64,000 nt of DNA, from contig BAFH01000002.1 of NCBI GenBank assembly GCA_000296795.1, forward strand, positions 186,001 through 250,000, in the 5' to 3' direction. The notes beneath the pieces were generated by a model, which did not search any database, was not told where the DNA came from, and saw only the letters and a list, made by a program, of their open reading frames with translations. Below, one piece after another: positions 17,638 to 25,478 of the stretch. This DNA is from Candidatus Jettenia caeni (lineage in GTDB: Bacteria; Planctomycetota; Brocadiia; Brocadiales; Brocadiaceae). Both the position numbers and the translations under genes were made by a program. Numbering within the stretch: the first letter of the stretch is position 1; each line of letters opens with the position of its first letter.

Positions 17638-18126
17638 TTAATACCATAAATCTTGTTTTACCTTAGTATTCCCACGCTCCTCAATAGTTTTAATCAGCTT
17701 TTCTTTTGTCGTCCATCCACGGTAAAATACAACCTTTATCGTACTCGTATCGACACCTACGTCGGAATTACATACTCCAAAAACCCCTAAAAGATATGCC
17801 CGTACATCATGCGCCTCTACCTCAACCATACCTTCTGTTTCAAAAATAATGGTATCCGTAAGAATATGTGCTTTAAATCCATTATCTTCCAGTGTCTTAA
17901 CTATTTTTCTGGCAAATCTGATCCAGCCCTCGTAATAGTTAATAGCAACTTCCCTTGTATCAAGGGCAATATCTTTGGTCGTAACTCCTGGAAGTTCATC
18001 CAATACCTGTCTCAATCTTTCTGCATCTGATATACTGGTGAGATTATCAATTCTAAAAGCAAGATTGTCCGGCAGTGAGGTATGAAAGCCCGCATCATGA
18101 ACGACCTTTATAATTTGTTCTTCCGT
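17638..18126 (-). pseudogene. 5'-truncated gene with HMA-like domains that lack metal-binding cysteines
   Basis: The frame is open from a stop at 18127-18129 to 17638, with family-like sequence beginning immediately after that stop (EEQIIKVVHDAGF). The original N-terminus is therefore missing, and the first usable start is a TTG at 18015. Two or three ferredoxin-like beta-alpha-beta-beta-alpha-beta units of the heavy-metal-associated type are visible (FRIDNLTSISDAE..., IIFETEGMVEVEAHD...). The usual GMxCxxC is replaced by residues without cysteine, so copper or mercury binding of the classical kind is excluded. It sits directly after the terminator of the upstream cytochrome gene, leaving no room for its own promoter. 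It is a remnant, or less likely a short gene from TTG 18015. Confidence 0.6.
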
Positions 18127-18156: not shown

Positions 18157-18192
18157 AAAACGAATGGCCCGTTAGAACGGGCCATTCGTTTT
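18157..18192. terminator. Strong intrinsic terminator of the hydrazine-synthase-gamma-like gene
   Basis: AAAACGAATGGCCCGTT (18157-18173) pairs almost perfectly with ACGGGCCATTCGTTTT (18177-18192), with a 3-base loop. The stem's own A/T ends give a U-run on either strand. It directly follows the cytochrome stop on the minus strand. Confidence 0.93.
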
Positions 18193-18198
18193 AAAACA

Positions 18199-19224
18199 TT
18201 ATAAAGCCTTCATGAATTCGACTAAATCTTCCAACTCCTGTTGACTCAGATGCGATGTCCTGCCGTGCATATCCTTCTCATTTACGCTATTGTTGATCGT
18301 ATCCATCAACGTCCTTGCACTCCCATCATGGAAATAAGTCCCTGATGCATAAATGTCCCTCAAGGTCGGCGTATCAAACTCCTTTACCAGGTCTAACCCT
18401 ATGATCGGTGTATCACTCTCTTCTCCATAGGGATCCTCACCAGCCTCCAATGCCTTCATGTTAAATACCTTACCCGGTGTTGACCTGAACCCCTTTACTC
18501 CTACCCTGCCGGTTCCTACATCATGCGTCTGTGCATCACTATAGAGCGCCTTCGGATCGCTTGACTCACCAGGATGACATTCCACACATCCTACCTTCGG
18601 ATCATTAAACAGCTTCTCACCCCTCTTCTGCGCCTCGGTCAAACTACCATCCGCATTCCTGAACGGACTTCCCGTAAACTCCAGTGACCGAATGTAACAG
18701 ATCAATGACTCTAATCTCTCCGGTGAAAAGTTCTCGCTCCTGAACACAAATCCAGGGTCTCTGCCGCATACCCTGTCGAGTGAGCTTGTTGCCCCTACGA
18801 TCTCATCCGGATGCCCCGTAAATCCCTCATGTCTGAAGGGTGGTAAATATCTACCGCCACGGATATACTTTACATTCTTCCAGCTTCCCCAGCCTTCATC
18901 TCCTAAATCCCAGATGAGTCCGGTTGTCTGACCTCTTTCGTAATGACAACTCGCACATGCATACTCTCCTTGTAACGCCCATGAGGCATCGTTAAACAGG
19001 AACTGGCCGTACCTGACCAATTCACTCTTATAGGGTGAGTGCTTTACCCGATAATGCACCTCAGGCACCGTTAATGGCTCACCTCTGGGAAGCGGCTCCC
19101 ATTCAGGCCCTGTCTGTATCGTTGCTATTACCTGTGGCGTCCCCGCCATTATCTCACCGGCTGTTACTACCCCGGTTATCCCAAGGACTGCAACTAAGCC
19201 GATCTTTACTGTTTTCGTAAACAT
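18199..19224 (-). CDS. Diheme MauG/CcP-family cytochrome c, probable hydrazine synthase gamma subunit
   Basis: The 341-residue exported protein has a signal peptide (about 1-22) and two heme sites, CASCH (90-94) and CVECH (213-217), the layout of MauG/cytochrome c peroxidases. Extra Cys153 and Cys176, FHDG (His299) and MHG (His320) fit my recollection of the hydrazine synthase gamma chain, in which an added Cys is bonded to a heme. The opening GPEWEPLPRGEPLTVPEVHY and GLDLVKEFDTPTLRD are consistent with it. Codon use (AAG over AAA, GAG over GAA, more G+C than neighbours) and a near-perfect AAGGAGG ribosome site suggest very high expression. Hydrazine synthase joins NO and ammonium to hydrazine. 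No alpha or beta subunit gene is in the window. A general diheme peroxidase is the alternative. Confidence 0.65.
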   Translation of the reverse strand: MFTKTVKIGLVAVLGITGVVTAGEIMAGTPQVIATIQTGPEWEPLPRGEPLTVPEVHYRVKHSPYKSELVRYGQFLFNDASWALQGEYACASCHYERGQTTGLIWDLGDEGWGSWKNVKYIRGGRYLPPFRHEGFTGHPDEIVGATSSLDRVCGRDPGFVFRSENFSPERLESLICYIRSLEFTGSPFRNADGSLTEAQKRGEKLFNDPKVGCVECHPGESSDPKALYSDAQTHDVGTGRVGVKGFRSTPGKVFNMKALEAGEDPYGEESDTPIIGLDLVKEFDTPTLRDIYASGTYFHDGSARTLMDTINNSVNEKDMHGRTSHLSQQELEDLVEFMKAL

Positions 19225-19259
19225 ACTGAGCCTCCTTAAGCAATGTAAAAATTCCAAAA

Positions 19260-19345
19260 TTAACAATTAACTAACCATAAAAAATCCAGACTACTCTCTT
19301 CTTCTATATCTTCATGTAAATATCTTTCCAGAATCACCTCCTTTT
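19260..19345 (-). promoter_or_regulatory. Leader of the cytochrome gene with an extra consensus ribosome site and a mini-ORF
   Basis: On the minus strand AAAAGGAGGTGAT (19345-19333) is a full-length match to the anti-Shine-Dalgarno end of 16S rRNA, about 110 bases before the real start at 19224. A GTG inside it could open a 25-codon frame that ends at 19260, though the spacing is poor. It may be a ribosome standby site or mRNA stabiliser for a highly expressed gene. The rest of 19346-19765 has a palindromic repeat (19381-19459) and otherwise no gene. Confidence 0.35.
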
Positions 19346-19380
19346 ATTTATAATAATTTACAAAAATAACTTTGCCGTTA

Positions 19381-19459
19381 TTGTCATCCCAGACATAGCA
19401 AGTAATTACACTGAATTGCGCTACGCTTTTATTGCCAGCATACGTACTGGTAATGACAA
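19381..19459. repeat. Palindromic REP-like element
   Basis: TTGTCATCCCAG (19381-19392) faces CTGGTAATGACAA (about 19447-19459) in inverted orientation, about 55 bases apart. It resembles in form, but not in sequence, the GTCATTCCCGAAT palindromes at 11728 and 44176. Confidence 0.5.
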
Positions 19460-19765
19460 ATATTAAAGAAGCGGGAAAACCAATAGGTTAAAATGTATAA
19501 ATTTTAAGAGTATCTACTTAAGAATTCCGCACTTACCTTAGTTATAAGAAATAGTAAGCAATGGAAATGCCAAGATATATCAACTCAAATAATATAAACG
19601 TAAATATCATTAAAAAAAGAACTTAGATATGTTTAAAATTTTCTTTACGAAAAATTGAAAATTTTACATTTGACGATGATAAGTCTGATAGGGGGTTATC
19701 GGATGAATTAATTTTGTATTAAACCTTGTAATTATTACACTTAGGACAATGCCTAAATATGGGCA

Positions 19766-21172
19766 TTATTGCGCCCATTCGCTGGCAGATAAGCAGAGTT
19801 TTGTTATATTGTATTTTGCAAGCTTGTTTTGAAGTGTTGTGCGAGGTATACGCAATATCTCAGACATACGCACCTGGTTACCCTGTGTCTTTTGGTATGC
19901 CCAGATGAGAAGTTTTTTTTCTGCCTCACCGAGGGTTTCTTGTAAATCAATAGAATCAATCGTGGAAAGTTCGATAGGAAATATGCCAGAGGGTGCATTT
20001 CCCTCCACTACATTTATGGGAAGATTTTTCGGTATAATGGTACGAGAAGAACAAAATGCCACGGCATGTTCAATAACGTTTTCTAATTCCCGGATATTCC
20101 CAGGCCAATTATATAATAACAGTAAATTGAGCGCCTCTTGTGATATTGATTGAACATCAACACGTTGCCGTATGGCATATTTTTTCATAAAATAATTTAC
20201 GAGGAGAGGTATATCGTCTTTTCTTTCCCTCAGTGGCGAAAGATGAATAGTAACTACATTAAGCCGGTAATACAGGTCTTCTCGAAACTGACCTTTCTGT
20301 ACCAATTTCTTCAGTTCCTTTTTTGTTGCACAGATGACACGGACGTCGACAGGGATAGTCTCTTCTCCTCCAACACGCTCAAACTCCCGTTCCTGGAGTA
20401 CCCTGAGTAGTTTGACCTGCATTTCTAAGGGAATATCATCCACATCATCGAGAAATATAGTGCCTCCATCAGCTAATTCAAAACGTCCACGCCTTGTTTT
20501 TATTGCCCCTGTAAAAGAGCCTTTCTCATGTCCAAAGAGTTCACTCTCCAGAATTTCTCTATTTAAGGCAGCGCAACTCAGTTTTACAAAAGGCATATCG
20601 CATCGATTACTATTGTAATGGACTGCGCCGGCTATTAGTTCTTTTCCGGTACCACTTTCGCCCTGGATAAGTATCGTAGTATCACGATTAGATACGGTAC
20701 TGATAATCTCAAACACCTGTTTCATAGCCTCGCTTTTTCCTATAATATTGTCGTACCCATACTGGCTAAGAACTTGTTGCTTCAACAGGGTATTTTCTGC
20801 AATCATATTTTTGTGCCTAAGCGCCTTCTGGAGTTTGATAATTAATTCTTCCAGGGAAAATGGCTTGGTGACATAATCGTATGCCCCTTCTTTCATAGCT
20901 ATAACAGCATTTTCAATGGAACCATAAGCAGTCATAAGGATGACAACAATATCCGGATATGCTTTTTTTACTTCTCTCAGGAAATCTATACCATCCATCT
21001 TAGGTAAGCGTAAATCGGTTATTACTGCATCGAAGCTTGTGGATTGCAATATTTTAAGACCTTCAATAGCATTTGGTAGAGAAGTAACCTTATATCCCTC
21101 TTTCACCAACTTATCTTCAAGGGAAATACGTATAAGTTTTTCATCATCAACTACGAGCACTCTACTCTTCAT
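19766..21172 (-). CDS. NtrC-family sigma54-dependent response regulator
   Basis: The 468-residue regulator has three domains. The receiver (about 1-120) carries phosphoacceptor Asp53 (ITDLRLPKMDG) and Lys102-type KPF. The AAA+ sigma54 activation domain (about 140-370) has Walker A GESGTGKE, Walker B GTIFLDDVDDIP and the loop GSFTGA, where Ala to Ser varies the canonical GAFTGA that touches sigma54. The C-terminal Fis-type helix-turn-helix (about 425-465) reads GNQVRMSEILRIPRTTLQNKL. It is encoded 13 bases after its kinase partner and is co-transcribed. Target promoters would be sigma54-dependent; a candidate lies at 25547-25561 upstream of the nearby secreted-protein pair. The signal is unknown. 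Confidence 0.94.
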   Translation of the reverse strand: MKSRVLVVDDEKLIRISLEDKLVKEGYKVTSLPNAIEGLKILQSTSFDAVITDLRLPKMDGIDFLREVKKAYPDIVVILMTAYGSIENAVIAMKEGAYDYVTKPFSLEELIIKLQKALRHKNMIAENTLLKQQVLSQYGYDNIIGKSEAMKQVFEIISTVSNRDTTILIQGESGTGKELIAGAVHYNSNRCDMPFVKLSCAALNREILESELFGHEKGSFTGAIKTRRGRFELADGGTIFLDDVDDIPLEMQVKLLRVLQEREFERVGGEETIPVDVRVICATKKELKKLVQKGQFREDLYYRLNVVTIHLSPLRERKDDIPLLVNYFMKKYAIRQRVDVQSISQEALNLLLLYNWPGNIRELENVIEHAVAFCSSRTIIPKNLPINVVEGNAPSGIFPIELSTIDSIDLQETLGEAEKKLLIWAYQKTQGNQVRMSEILRIPRTTLQNKLAKYNITKLCLSASEWAQ

Positions 21173-21185
21173 AATAGATGTACCA

Positions 21186-23135
21186 CTATTCTTCTTTAAA
21201 GCAAGGGAGGCATAGTATAAACGTGGTTCCTTTATCTACCTTACTTTCAACATGGATTTCTCCACAATGATCTTCTATAATTCTTTTTGAAACAGCTAAT
21301 CCCATGCCCAGCCCCTTTTCACCCTCTTTATTCTTTGTAGTAAAAAACGGTTCGAATATCTTATTCGTAATCTCATCCTGGATACCACATCCAGTATCAA
21401 TAATGTAAACCGTAACACATGCTGTATGTTTTTTGCAAATATCGGTCTTTATCGTAAGTGTTCCTCCGTTTGGCATACTCTCAATAGCGTTAACCATGAT
21501 ATTAATAAATACCTGAGAGATATGGTCAGCGTCTACATAAGAAAAAGGAAGAGATTCATTCAATTCTCTCTGAATAAAGATATGATCAGGCTCAATTCTA
21601 TGCTCTATAAACTCAATAGAACTCTTCATGATTGTATTAATGTTATTTTTGGATACACAAAGAGTATACGGCCTGGAAAAAGTTAAAAGCCGCTTTACTA
21701 TTATCTCAACTCGTTTCAGTCCTTCCAGCATGAGAGCGGAATATTTTTTTGTCTGGAAGATATTTTCAGGCTCATTTCCCAGCATACTGGCAAAATTTTG
21801 TAAACCTCCCAATGGATTATTGATCTCATGAGCTACATCAGCCGCAAGCTCACCTACAGCCGCAAGGCGCTCTGCGCGTAATAATTGCGCCGTCCGGTCT
21901 TCCACCTTTTGCTCAAGATTTGAATATGATTCCTTTAACTTCACTGCCATTTGATTAAATTCCCGGGCAAGAAGACCAACTTCATTCTGGGAGATAATTG
22001 ATATGCGATGATTAAGATTTCCGGCAGCAATAGCTTTTGCCCCTTCTGCTAATTGCAGTATAGGCTTTGTGATTCGGTTGGTAAGTGAGATACCAATAGC
22101 AACAACTACTGTAATACAAATCACCATCAGAGCAATAACACGGGTCTTTAGTTTTTCAACCGGAGCAAATGCCTCTGTTATATCCTGTTTTGCCACGAGT
22201 CCCCATTTGAGAATGGGAATATGCCGATAGGCAGAAAGCACTTTGGTATTCCTATAATCCATAGATTCCTTTATCCCCTCTTTACCATCAGAACTTAATA
22301 CCGATGGGATATCTGAAGTAGAATGGATAGCGCTCGTGAATTTCAGGGCTGCTCCTTGCTTATGACGAAGATCATTTAAATAAACGATGTCTTCCCCGCT
22401 CCTCCTTACCAGGAGCGTTTCTCCCGTATCTCCCATTCCAGGCCAGTTACGAATCAGTGGTTCAATACTATTTTTGACGTTAACATCAAGCAATATGATA
22501 CCAATGATAATATCACTGCTCTCAAGGGTAACAGTATCCGTCATACATACAGGGCAAAAATACGTCATATAATTTTGTCCGGTAAGCTCAGAGGTGTAAA
22601 TATCCTTTACTGCTACATCTTTTTTTTGAAGGATATCAATATAGTCGTCGAATGAATGCAGAGTTTTGCCAATGATATTGGGATATGTTGAGATGACAAC
22701 CTCTCCATTAGCACCATCGATAATAGAAATAATATTATAATGTTTGTAAAATTGTTTCAGGATATGAAGATTATCTAAAATTCTTATGTAATTTATCCGG
22801 CCTGCCTCTGAACTTATCAGTTGTTCAACACTTTCAAATCTTCGCCTTTGTTGTAAAAGACTGGTTGCCGCAGCAGCAAGCACTTTATTGCGGGCAATTA
22901 TCGAAGTATCTGTCAATCGCTCTTCTAGCCAACTGCTCAACTCATTCTTTTTTAAATCAGCAATAGAGGTAAGCTGTTCAACGACTCTTTGTTCTATAGC
23001 ACTCTTGCCACTGTAATATTCCATAATACAAACCACCAACAATGGCACAGTAGTCAGGAAACAAATGCAGCAAATAAGCTGTACTTTAATACTCTTGAAG
23101 ATATTTTTATAATAGTTCATAGCATGACTATCCAT
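21186..23135 (-). CDS. Membrane sensor histidine kinase (Cache/HAMP type)
   Basis: The 649-residue kinase has one membrane helix near the N-terminus (about 17-38). An extracytoplasmic Cache-like sensor (about 40-320; VISTYPNIIGKTLHSFDDY) follows, then a second helix (about 335-358), HAMP (about 360-412) and a short coiled coil. The HisKA domain has the H box ELAADVAHEINNPLGG (His436). The HATPase domain shows VFINIMVNAIESMPNGG, IDTGCGI and GLGMGLAVSKRIIEDH. It autophosphorylates and passes the phosphate to the downstream NtrC-like regulator. The promoter probably lies in 23136-23504, where no gene is seen. The ligand is unknown; Cache domains usually bind small metabolites. Confidence 0.94.
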   Translation of the reverse strand: MDSHAMNYYKNIFKSIKVQLICCICFLTTVPLLVVCIMEYYSGKSAIEQRVVEQLTSIADLKKNELSSWLEERLTDTSIIARNKVLAAAATSLLQQRRRFESVEQLISSEAGRINYIRILDNLHILKQFYKHYNIISIIDGANGEVVISTYPNIIGKTLHSFDDYIDILQKKDVAVKDIYTSELTGQNYMTYFCPVCMTDTVTLESSDIIIGIILLDVNVKNSIEPLIRNWPGMGDTGETLLVRRSGEDIVYLNDLRHKQGAALKFTSAIHSTSDIPSVLSSDGKEGIKESMDYRNTKVLSAYRHIPILKWGLVAKQDITEAFAPVEKLKTRVIALMVICITVVVAIGISLTNRITKPILQLAEGAKAIAAGNLNHRISIISQNEVGLLAREFNQMAVKLKESYSNLEQKVEDRTAQLLRAERLAAVGELAADVAHEINNPLGGLQNFASMLGNEPENIFQTKKYSALMLEGLKRVEIIVKRLLTFSRPYTLCVSKNNINTIMKSSIEFIEHRIEPDHIFIQRELNESLPFSYVDADHISQVFINIMVNAIESMPNGGTLTIKTDICKKHTACVTVYIIDTGCGIQDEITNKIFEPFFTTKNKEGEKGLGMGLAVSKRIIEDHCGEIHVESKVDKGTTFILCLPCFKEE

Positions 23136-23504: not shown

Positions 23505-24488
23505 TTATTTTTCTAATACAAACGCCACAGGAATAAGGCAATCTGCCGTAACGCGTATATCGGTATCTGGCGATGTATATACGACAACAGAAGATGTGCC
23601 GCTCAATGTTACCGGATGTGTATGGACATCCCAGAGCTGAGGTAATGGCAAACCTGTACTCCCATCCCAATCACTGGTAACAAGAGGCGGACCGGCTATC
23701 TGTGTACCGTTAAAGGTCGTTTTTTCATTGGATAAATTAAATTCATTTTCATGTGGTTTGAGATAACCCCCTCGTTGCCCATCAGCCCCACACATGGTAA
23801 AAAGTCCACTACCGGATAAGGCTGGATGGGTGAAAGTAAATGTCCCGGTATGATCAAACTTCGAATCATTAAGCGCATCATAGATACGTACCTGTTTGCC
23901 AGTGGTAGACTCATCACTATATACGGCAATAAGCGTTGCGCCTTTAAGCATTCTTGCGCCAATAACATCTGCAGATATTAAATCTCGGCCTTTCGTTGTT
24001 GTTGTTCCATTAAAGTTAATAACAACCTTATAGTCTATATTGGGATTATTTGCCGGTATGAATGGAGTTACATTTGCCCTATAGGTGTGATTTCCAATGA
24101 ACTGCCAGCATGTGTCACTATTATCAGCTCTTTTGGTGCCATTTACACGATTACCATTAAATACTACTACGGATCCAAGGCCTGTTGCGTTAGTATCCGA
24201 AAAATTCCAGTAAAGAAAAGCCCTCACGATAGTGCTACCATTTGGAACTCCTCTTAAAGAAATCCAGCCTGAGGTTTTATCTGCCAACGCTATTCCATTT
24301 GCAACATGACTGGCATTAGAAATGGTAACACTTGGAGCAATTGTTTTTTCATTAGGAAGTTTTGGCTCAAGGGCTAAAGATAGTACTCCTGTATCTGTCG
24401 CGCCATTAGCGGCAAAAATTACTTTGTTTTGTGAAATCAGCATAATACCTATCAAGGCAAAAGCAGATAAGATTAATTTCTTCCTCAC
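23505..24488 (-). CDS. Secreted beta-rich protein of unknown function (paralogue 1; DUF3344-like)
   Basis: The 327-residue protein has a clear signal peptide (about 1-26, ending VIFAANG). The mature part is rich in Gly, Ser, Thr and Asn and looks all-beta. It has recurring phrases VRAFLYWNFSDTNATGLGSVVVFNG, TYRANVTPFIPANNPN, GATLIAVYSDEST and LSGSGLFTMCGADGQRGG. These resemble DUF3344/surface-layer-associated domains, but I would not assign a function. It is about two-thirds identical to the gene upstream (24534-25478), with an insertion after the signal peptide (LSLALEPKLPNEKTIAPS) and differences in the middle. A GGAGGGGAAAT ribosome site precedes the start. Both genes are flanked by two sigma54-type two-component systems, suggesting regulated envelope proteins. 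Confidence 0.7.
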   Translation of the reverse strand: MRKKLILSAFALIGIMLISQNKVIFAANGATDTGVLSLALEPKLPNEKTIAPSVTISNASHVANGIALADKTSGWISLRGVPNGSTIVRAFLYWNFSDTNATGLGSVVVFNGNRVNGTKRADNSDTCWQFIGNHTYRANVTPFIPANNPNIDYKVVINFNGTTTTKGRDLISADVIGARMLKGATLIAVYSDESTTGKQVRIYDALNDSKFDHTGTFTFTHPALSGSGLFTMCGADGQRGGYLKPHENEFNLSNEKTTFNGTQIAGPPLVTSDWDGSTGLPLPQLWDVHTHPVTLSGTSSVVVYTSPDTDIRVTADCLIPVAFVLEK

Positions 24489-24533
24489 TATTTCCCCTCC
24501 TTTAGAGACTTAAGCACTTAGATTAAAGTAAAT

Positions 24534-25478
24534 TTATTTTTCTAATACAAATACTACAGGAACAAGGCAGTCAAGATTTGCAGCATTGGGATCTTTTGCT
24601 GTATAGACAACAATAGAAGATGTTCCACTAAATGTTACTACATGTGTATGAACATCCCAAAGCTGAGGTAATGGCAAACCTGTACTCCCGTCCCAGTCGC
24701 CACCGGCAACAGAAGTACCAGCTACCTGTGTGCCGTTAAAGGTCGTTTTTTCATTGGATGTATTAGCATGAGTATCATGCCCGGAACCACGCTGTCCATC
24801 GGCGCCGCACATGGTGAAAAGCCCACTGCCGGATAAGGCTGGATGTGTCAGGGTAAATGTCGCACTCCCTGAAAATTCTGAACCGTTTAGCGCATCATAG
24901 ATACGTACCTGTTTGCCGGAGGTAGACGCATTGCTATACACAACAATAAGTGTCGCCCCTTCAAGCCTTTTTGTCTGGGATTCCGTTGGAGCCCATGGGT
25001 TTTGACCTGTGGTTGATATTATTCCATTAAAATTAATAACAACTTCATAATCCTGATTTGGATTGTTTGCCGGTATGAATGGAGTTACATTTGCCCTATA
25101 GGTATGATTTCCCGTCAACCCCCAACATGGGTCAGCGCTATCAGCTCTTTTGATGCCATTTACTCGATTACCGTTAAATACTACTACGGATCCAAGGCCT
25201 GTTGCGTTAGTATCCGAAAAATTCCAGTAAAGAAAAGCCTTCACAACAGTACTACCATCTGGAACACCTCTCAAAGGAATCCAACCTGAGGTTTTGTTTC
25301 TTAACGCTATCCCGTTTGCCACATGACTTGCGTTAGAAATAACATTAATTGGATCCACGGTTTTTTCTACGGTAGTCTTTGTATCAGTTACACCATTAGC
25401 AGCAAAAATTACCTTGCTTTGTAAAACCAAGATAAAACCTACGAGAGCAAAAGCAGATAAGATTAATTTTTTTTTCAC
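24534..25478 (-). CDS. Secreted beta-rich protein of unknown function (paralogue 2; DUF3344-like)
   Basis: A 314-residue paralogue of the neighbouring gene with the same signal peptide plan (MKKKLILSAFALVGFILVLQ...AANG) and the same domain throughout. The two conserved Cys (CGADGQRG, DCLVPV) and the closing VVFVLEK are shared. The 45-bp gap between them repeats the ribosome-site block TAAAGGAGGGGAAAT found upstream of both, so the duplication included the leader. This copy is promoter-proximal. A sigma54-like element lies about 70 bases upstream. Extracellular or outer-membrane placement is inferred from the signal peptide only. Confidence 0.7.
   Translation of the reverse strand: MKKKLILSAFALVGFILVLQSKVIFAANGVTDTKTTVEKTVDPINVISNASHVANGIALRNKTSGWIPLRGVPDGSTVVKAFLYWNFSDTNATGLGSVVVFNGNRVNGIKRADSADPCWGLTGNHTYRANVTPFIPANNPNQDYEVVINFNGIISTTGQNPWAPTESQTKRLEGATLIVVYSNASTSGKQVRIYDALNGSEFSGSATFTLTHPALSGSGLFTMCGADGQRGSGHDTHANTSNEKTTFNGTQVAGTSVAGGDWDGSTGLPLPQLWDVHTHVVTFSGTSSIVVYTAKDPNAANLDCLVPVVFVLEK

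Follow-up and report, generated by a model that had tools for sequence, protein, structure and literature searches.

The gene on the reverse strand at positions 18199-19224 of the DNA analysed here is a true hzsC, encoding the gamma subunit of hydrazine synthase (HZS), and this identity is well supported by its sequence. It is a third hzsC in the genome of Candidatus Jettenia caeni, probably the remnant of a third HZS locus now serving as a separately regulated dosage copy, whose product joins the same HZS complex as the gamma made from the operons; this physiological role is one that we infer. Anammox is defined by hydrazine synthase, whose subunits are generally regarded as the products of a single operon that is present once or twice. 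A separately regulated hzsC found across the family suggests that the supply of gamma can be controlled apart from that of alpha and beta. The window, that is, the whole 64-kb stretch that was analysed (G000:C2:186001-250000), comes from a genome of 4.09 Mb in 4 contigs, and the features around the gene are as follows.

17638..18015, minus strand: truncated HMA-domain gene (PF00403), beyond the terminator
18157..18192, minus strand: intrinsic terminator hairpin directly after the hzsC stop codon (-26.3 kcal/mol, z -7.9)
18199..19224, minus strand: hzsC, stand-alone copy, HZS gamma (NF052341 model; 5c2v_C match)
19231..19237, minus strand: Shine-Dalgarno sequence AAGGAGG, 6 nt before the ATG
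19333..19343, minus strand: extended anti-Shine-Dalgarno complement AAGGAGGTGAT in the 5' leader, about 110 nt upstream of the start
19557..19572, minus strand: sigma-54 promoter-like site TGGCATTTCCATTGCT, one mismatch to TGGCAC-N5-TTGCW
19766..21172, minus strand: NtrC-type response regulator of the locus III lineage (Pfam: receiver, sigma-54 activation, Fis HTH)
21186..23135, minus strand: sensor histidine kinase (Pfam: weak dCache match, HAMP, HisKA, HATPase)

Identity of the stand-alone gene

The hzsC reading frame is intact, starts with ATG and encodes a precursor of 341 aa with a signal peptide at approximately residues 1-27. It scores 747 bits over residues 4-341 against NF052341, the NCBIfam equivalog model for HZS gamma (cut-off 625), and matches the gamma chain of Kuenenia stuttgartiensis HZS (PDB 5C2V chain C) with an E value of 2e-199 over residues 28-341, the entire mature length. 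The two proteins share both CxxCH haem motifs (C90xxC93H94 and C213xxC216H217 in the Jettenia protein) as well as Cys153, Cys176 and His320, and all of these are invariant in the 31 family copies compared. Three cysteines bind the gamma-I haem of HZS (PMC12607021). The earlier note on this DNA, made from the sequence alone, had pointed to these same residues in proposing a dihaem cytochrome like HZS gamma, and it was right on both counts; the alignment with Kuenenia HzsC that it suggested spans the mature protein and keeps the linked cysteine positions. A general MauG/CcP identity can be set aside. Although the protein belongs to the dihaem family (CCP_MauG) that also includes MauG, MbnH and the bacterial dihaem cytochrome c peroxidases, its closest match is HZS gamma, and it falls far under the curated cut-offs of the MauG model (34.9 bits against 443.85) and the MbnH model (61.2 bits against 362.85). 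The Kuenenia gamma gene, given as kuste2859 or kuste2860 in different papers, sits between hzsB and hzsA in its two complete clusters; the Jettenia gene, unlike it, has no hzs neighbours and is flanked by a promoter-like site and a terminator of its own. A divergent hzsC relative, 39% identical over its full length, was also seen in Scalindua RBC_AMX3 (L078), a genome that has a normal hzsC as well.

Copy number and the two operon clusters

The genome holds three full hzsC genes, namely the orphan and two inside hzsB-hzsC-hzsA clusters that are 100% identical across 5284 bp. The locus I cluster lies inside contig C4, and the locus II cluster runs across the C1/C2 junction, with C1 ending inside the cluster and C2 opening with an hzsB fragment that adjoins a kinase and regulator. 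The orphan is 97.6% identical to the cluster hzsC over 1010 bp, and the match stops exactly at the stop codon; no similarity between the orphan and the clusters was found outside the gene, and its flanks within the window hold no hzsA, hzsB or remnant of either, just as had been claimed from the sequence. The earlier note left open whether this was a second, orphan gamma gene or the genome's main copy placed apart from its partners. The genome search that it proposed recovered the orphan and two complete, identical clusters elsewhere, so the gene cannot be the main copy; it is indeed an extra orphan, as the third copy rather than the second. An assembly error is ruled out in the same way as a hidden neighbouring hzsA or hzsB, since the same stand-alone arrangement recurs in closed genomes.

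Pairs of identical hzsABC clusters have been described in Brocadia H1_AMX1 (PMC7648391) and in Ca. Brocadiaceae (PMC12758564), and their near-perfect identity within a genome resembles that between orphan and operon copies; these pairs are, however, whole operons, whereas the orphan is a single gene that has diverged slightly in Jettenia. The passages of these two papers that the analysis covered make no mention of an orphan hzsC. An incomplete extra set of hzs genes, alongside two full clusters whose mature proteins it matches exactly, has been reported in Kuenenia MBR1 as a third, partial hzsB-hzsC copy (KSMBR1_2703/2704) (PMC5854607, PMC12607021), which differs from the Jettenia orphan in retaining hzsB. 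In the closed Kuenenia genome this third hzsB-hzsC lies in a 7.2-kb tandem duplication of the neighbouring cluster and is not accompanied by locus III regulators, so that it is a local duplication and not an instance of locus III. Extra partial hzs copies are thus already known in Kuenenia, and a conserved orphan hzsC is seemingly unreported: no report of one was found in the openly searchable literature, including that on hydrazine synthase with gene conversion, concerted evolution or sigma-54.

Conservation across the family

Conservation of the stand-alone hzsC is well supported by comparison of gene order and sequence. The order histidine kinase, NtrC-type regulator, stand-alone hzsC is found with a full-length gene in 10 species, comprising three Jettenia, four members of the Brocadia group (G015, G017, G018, G022), two of genus g7 and one of g11, with closed or near-closed genomes among them. 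In four more species (G019, G020, G023, G038) the contig ends inside hzsC right after the same regulator, as expected where assemblers break at a repeated gene, which brings the number of species in the family that carry the orphan to 14 or more, in every case behind the histidine kinase and the NtrC-type regulator. A further contig, in G036, begins with a partial hzsC that carries the orphan's downstream neighbours. The regulator encoded in the window groups in a tree with the regulators of other orphan loci, and orthologues of the kinase, approximately 78-98% identical, adjoin the orphan in most other genomes. Gene counts agree with this picture: three hzsC stand against two hzsA and two hzsB in two single-contig genomes (G015, G033) and one near-closed genome (G017), and the same holds for G028 if a split hzsA is counted once. 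In the latter, a single-contig Jettenia genome, a frameshift interrupts the second cluster's hzsA (L115, 4469-6920), either through sequencing error or in reality, and the other copy is intact. The orphan can also be lost, as five genomes (G012, G013, G014, G024, G039) carry the locus III regulator with no hzsC adjacent.

The presence of three near-identical copies in several genomes has practical consequences, in that hzsC-based quantification, short-read assembly and transcript mapping will all be biased, and several bins have lost hzs genes at exactly these repeats. A number of near-complete anammox bins (G019, G020, G023, G024, G025, G030 and others) seemingly lack full hzs genes, and in several of them contigs terminate within hzsC or hzsB, which makes calls of presence or absence from short-read bins unreliable. 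Two unusual arrangements were also noted. A Scalindua genome has a tandem pair of hzsB followed by hzsC, downstream of a kinase and regulator of the locus II type (L124, 6046-8443, G059). On contig C179 of G036 (L093, 8848-13200), an hzsC with an orphan-type N-terminus, leader and sigma-54-like site is followed directly by hzsA, with neither hzsB nor a regulator; this may be a chimera formed at the repeat or a different state of locus III.

Gene conversion of the coding body

The coding body and its surroundings have different histories. In a tree of mature hzsC DNA, each orphan groups with operon copies from the same genome wherever both are known, the locus label changes 10 times on the tree, and a tree holding all orphans together is strongly rejected. 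Mature hzsC is 96-100% identical within a genome and 81-88% identical between genera, even for the same locus, and dS is 0.005-0.15 within genomes as against 1.2-1.6 between genera. The regulators of loci I, II and III, by comparison, form three separate groups, that of locus III with 84% support, and the first codons of the gene are locus-specific, encoding MFTKT or similar in orphans and MRxGM or similar in operons. A body that follows the genome, joined to a gene start, leader and terminator that follow the locus, points to gene conversion; the hzsC coding body thus appears, with good support, to be homogenised with the operon copies as the 5' end and flanks evolve independently. The orphan would be a clean case of bacterial gene conversion confined to coding sequence.

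Trees of the coding body alone would also permit separate recent insertions of hzsC beside the same regulator in each lineage, in place of one old copy maintained by conversion. This is highly improbable, as the N-terminal codons, leader element, promoter-like site, terminator and synteny would all have had to originate repeatedly across genera.

Conversion has not been equally complete everywhere. In Brocadia and g7, where both copies can be compared, the mature orphan and operon proteins are identical. In Jettenia, each of the three orphans departs from the operon version at 5-8 residues, five of them common to two species, so conversion is patchy there and the protein is not fully interchangeable by sequence with the operon gamma. 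Residues that set the orphan apart from operon gamma include A83, V118, L174, F254 and N315. Most substitutions that postdate the last conversion are silent, and dN/dS over that interval is at most approximately 0.16, consistent with purifying selection.

Leader, promoter-like site and terminator

The near-perfect ribosome-binding site described in the earlier note is confirmed, and a strong GGAGG site is kept in all orphan leaders compared. Further upstream, AAGGAGGTGAT is the sole match with at most one mismatch in the 64-kb window, and a near-perfect complement of the 16S rRNA 3' end (0-2 mismatches) is found approximately 85-133 nt before the start in 15 of 15 orphan-type leaders. The element occurs at a similar distance in most locus II hzsB leaders and was not found in locus I leaders. 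It resembles the Shine-Dalgarno elements that stabilise mRNA in Bacillus. The orphan-specific leader at 19225-19550 is unique sequence.

Transcription is predicted to depend on sigma-54, with a start near 19545: the -24/-12-like site is conserved, an NtrC-type activator gene is adjacent and rpoN is present in the genome. Matches to the consensus with no more than one mismatch are found in 11 of 12 orphan-type leaders, the expectation from shuffled sequence being approximately 0.1 per 700 bp leader at up to three mismatches; a sigma-70 scan of the region gave no excess over shuffles. A strong hairpin of -24 to -34 kcal/mol follows the stop codon in every orphan locus folded, in contrast to the operon copies, which have none. 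With this hairpin directly after the stop and a promoter-like site and leader of its own, the orphan looks monocistronic, leaving the broken HMA gene outside the unit. In several Brocadia and g11 genomes (L085, L086, L090, L129, L131), the last 76 nt before the orphan hzsC hold a conserved hydrophobic micro-ORF of 23 residues (e.g., MMCFTVLVGLIVGFAIFYVVKEV) that ends at the hzsC Shine-Dalgarno sequence and is disrupted in Jettenia; it might encode a small membrane peptide or act as a leader element.

Origin of locus III

Loci II and III are tied together by their common leader features and related regulatory proteins, with kinases 45-57% identical, regulators approximately 62% identical, and an extra PAS domain in the locus II kinase. 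At locus III of G035, the promoter-like site and leader element are followed by hzsB, hzsC and the terminator, with no hzsA. This hzsB-hzsC stretch beside the locus III regulators (L099, 8941-11157) is 97% identical to the genome's own cluster. G035 is the exception among the orphan loci, as no remnants of hzsB or hzsA were found at the others, either between regulator and hzsC or downstream. Most simply, locus III would originally have contained hzsB-hzsC, of which only hzsC survives in most genera; alternatively, G035 may have gained hzsB by recombination. The G035 frames are broken by scattered short indels, many in homopolymers, a pattern which, in a 97% match, suggests assembly error or a poorly polished repeat, and the two genes are not counted as proven decay.

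Proposed role

It is proposed that a third HZS locus arose by duplication, along with its two-component system, ahead of the radiation of the Brocadiaceae, and that most genera would then have kept only its hzsC. The kinase, on some signal, would phosphorylate the NtrC-type regulator, and transcription with sigma-54 would yield extra gamma subunit. This gamma would be built into the same alpha-beta-gamma complex, whose alpha and beta come from the two operons, and would provide the gamma-I/gamma-II haem module that serves NO reduction. Its interchangeability with operon-made gamma would be kept up by gene conversion and selection, and a protein so maintained likely supplements the gamma of that HZS complex under a second form of control.

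A lone gamma might instead work without alpha and beta, as an inducible NO-to-hydroxylamine reductase or as an NO scavenger or NO-handling cytochrome under the adjacent two-component system, which would give half of the hydrazine synthase machinery a role outside the complex. NO has been proposed to be reduced to hydroxylamine at the gamma-I haem (PMC12607021), and hzsC alone has been kept at the locus under its own regulator, with hzsB and hzsA absent. A protein acting on its own would, however, be free to alter its contact surfaces, and the mature sequence is identical or nearly so to the gamma that forms the complex; moreover, no report of activity of free gamma was found in the literature covered. 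We regard a solo function as decidedly improbable.

It is also unlikely, if less far-fetched, that locus III is a decaying, non-functional relic or silent reservoir in which hzsC stays intact only through conversion from the operons. Frequent conversion, the lack of hzsB in most genomes, the several locus III regions without hzsC and the broken HMA neighbour in Jettenia would all fit such decay. Yet the sigma-54-like site, Shine-Dalgarno sequence, leader element, N-terminus and terminator are conserved although they lie outside the converted stretch, and the predominance of silent changes since the last conversion likewise argues against such a relic.

Composition and expression

The earlier note had read shifted codon choice and G+C as signs of very high expression. 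The shift itself is real, with a G+C of 0.493 against a median of 0.396 for the window's reading frames and a GC3 of 0.51 against 0.36. Adaptation of the ribosomal type was not found for this gene, as the codon adaptation index that had been proposed as a check, computed against ribosomal genes, is 0.607 for the orphan, under the window median of 0.642, and does not bear out the claim. Measured against hzsA and hzsB, codon use scores 0.72, the top value for the window (median 0.57). The unusual composition characterises hzs genes as such and has been preserved by conversion. As its codon use matches hzsA/hzsB and not ribosomal genes, high expression of the orphan is only indirectly suggested. 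In Kuenenia the hzs operons are very highly expressed and their copies indistinguishable (PMC7438415), and near-identity makes read mapping among the Jettenia copies ambiguous in the same way.

Other neighbouring genes

The truncated HMA gene that follows the orphan was correctly described from the sequence: intact relatives are 255 aa long and begin with an N-terminal leader, which this gene lacks, and the upstream frame is closed, so the gene has probably decayed. At positions 23505-25478 of the window, on the minus strand, lie two tandem paralogues with DUF3344-like domains, 69% identical to each other, and this pair is conserved beside the locus III kinase in other Jettenia genomes. The partner genes hzsA and hzsB are present elsewhere in the same genome, in the two clusters described above.
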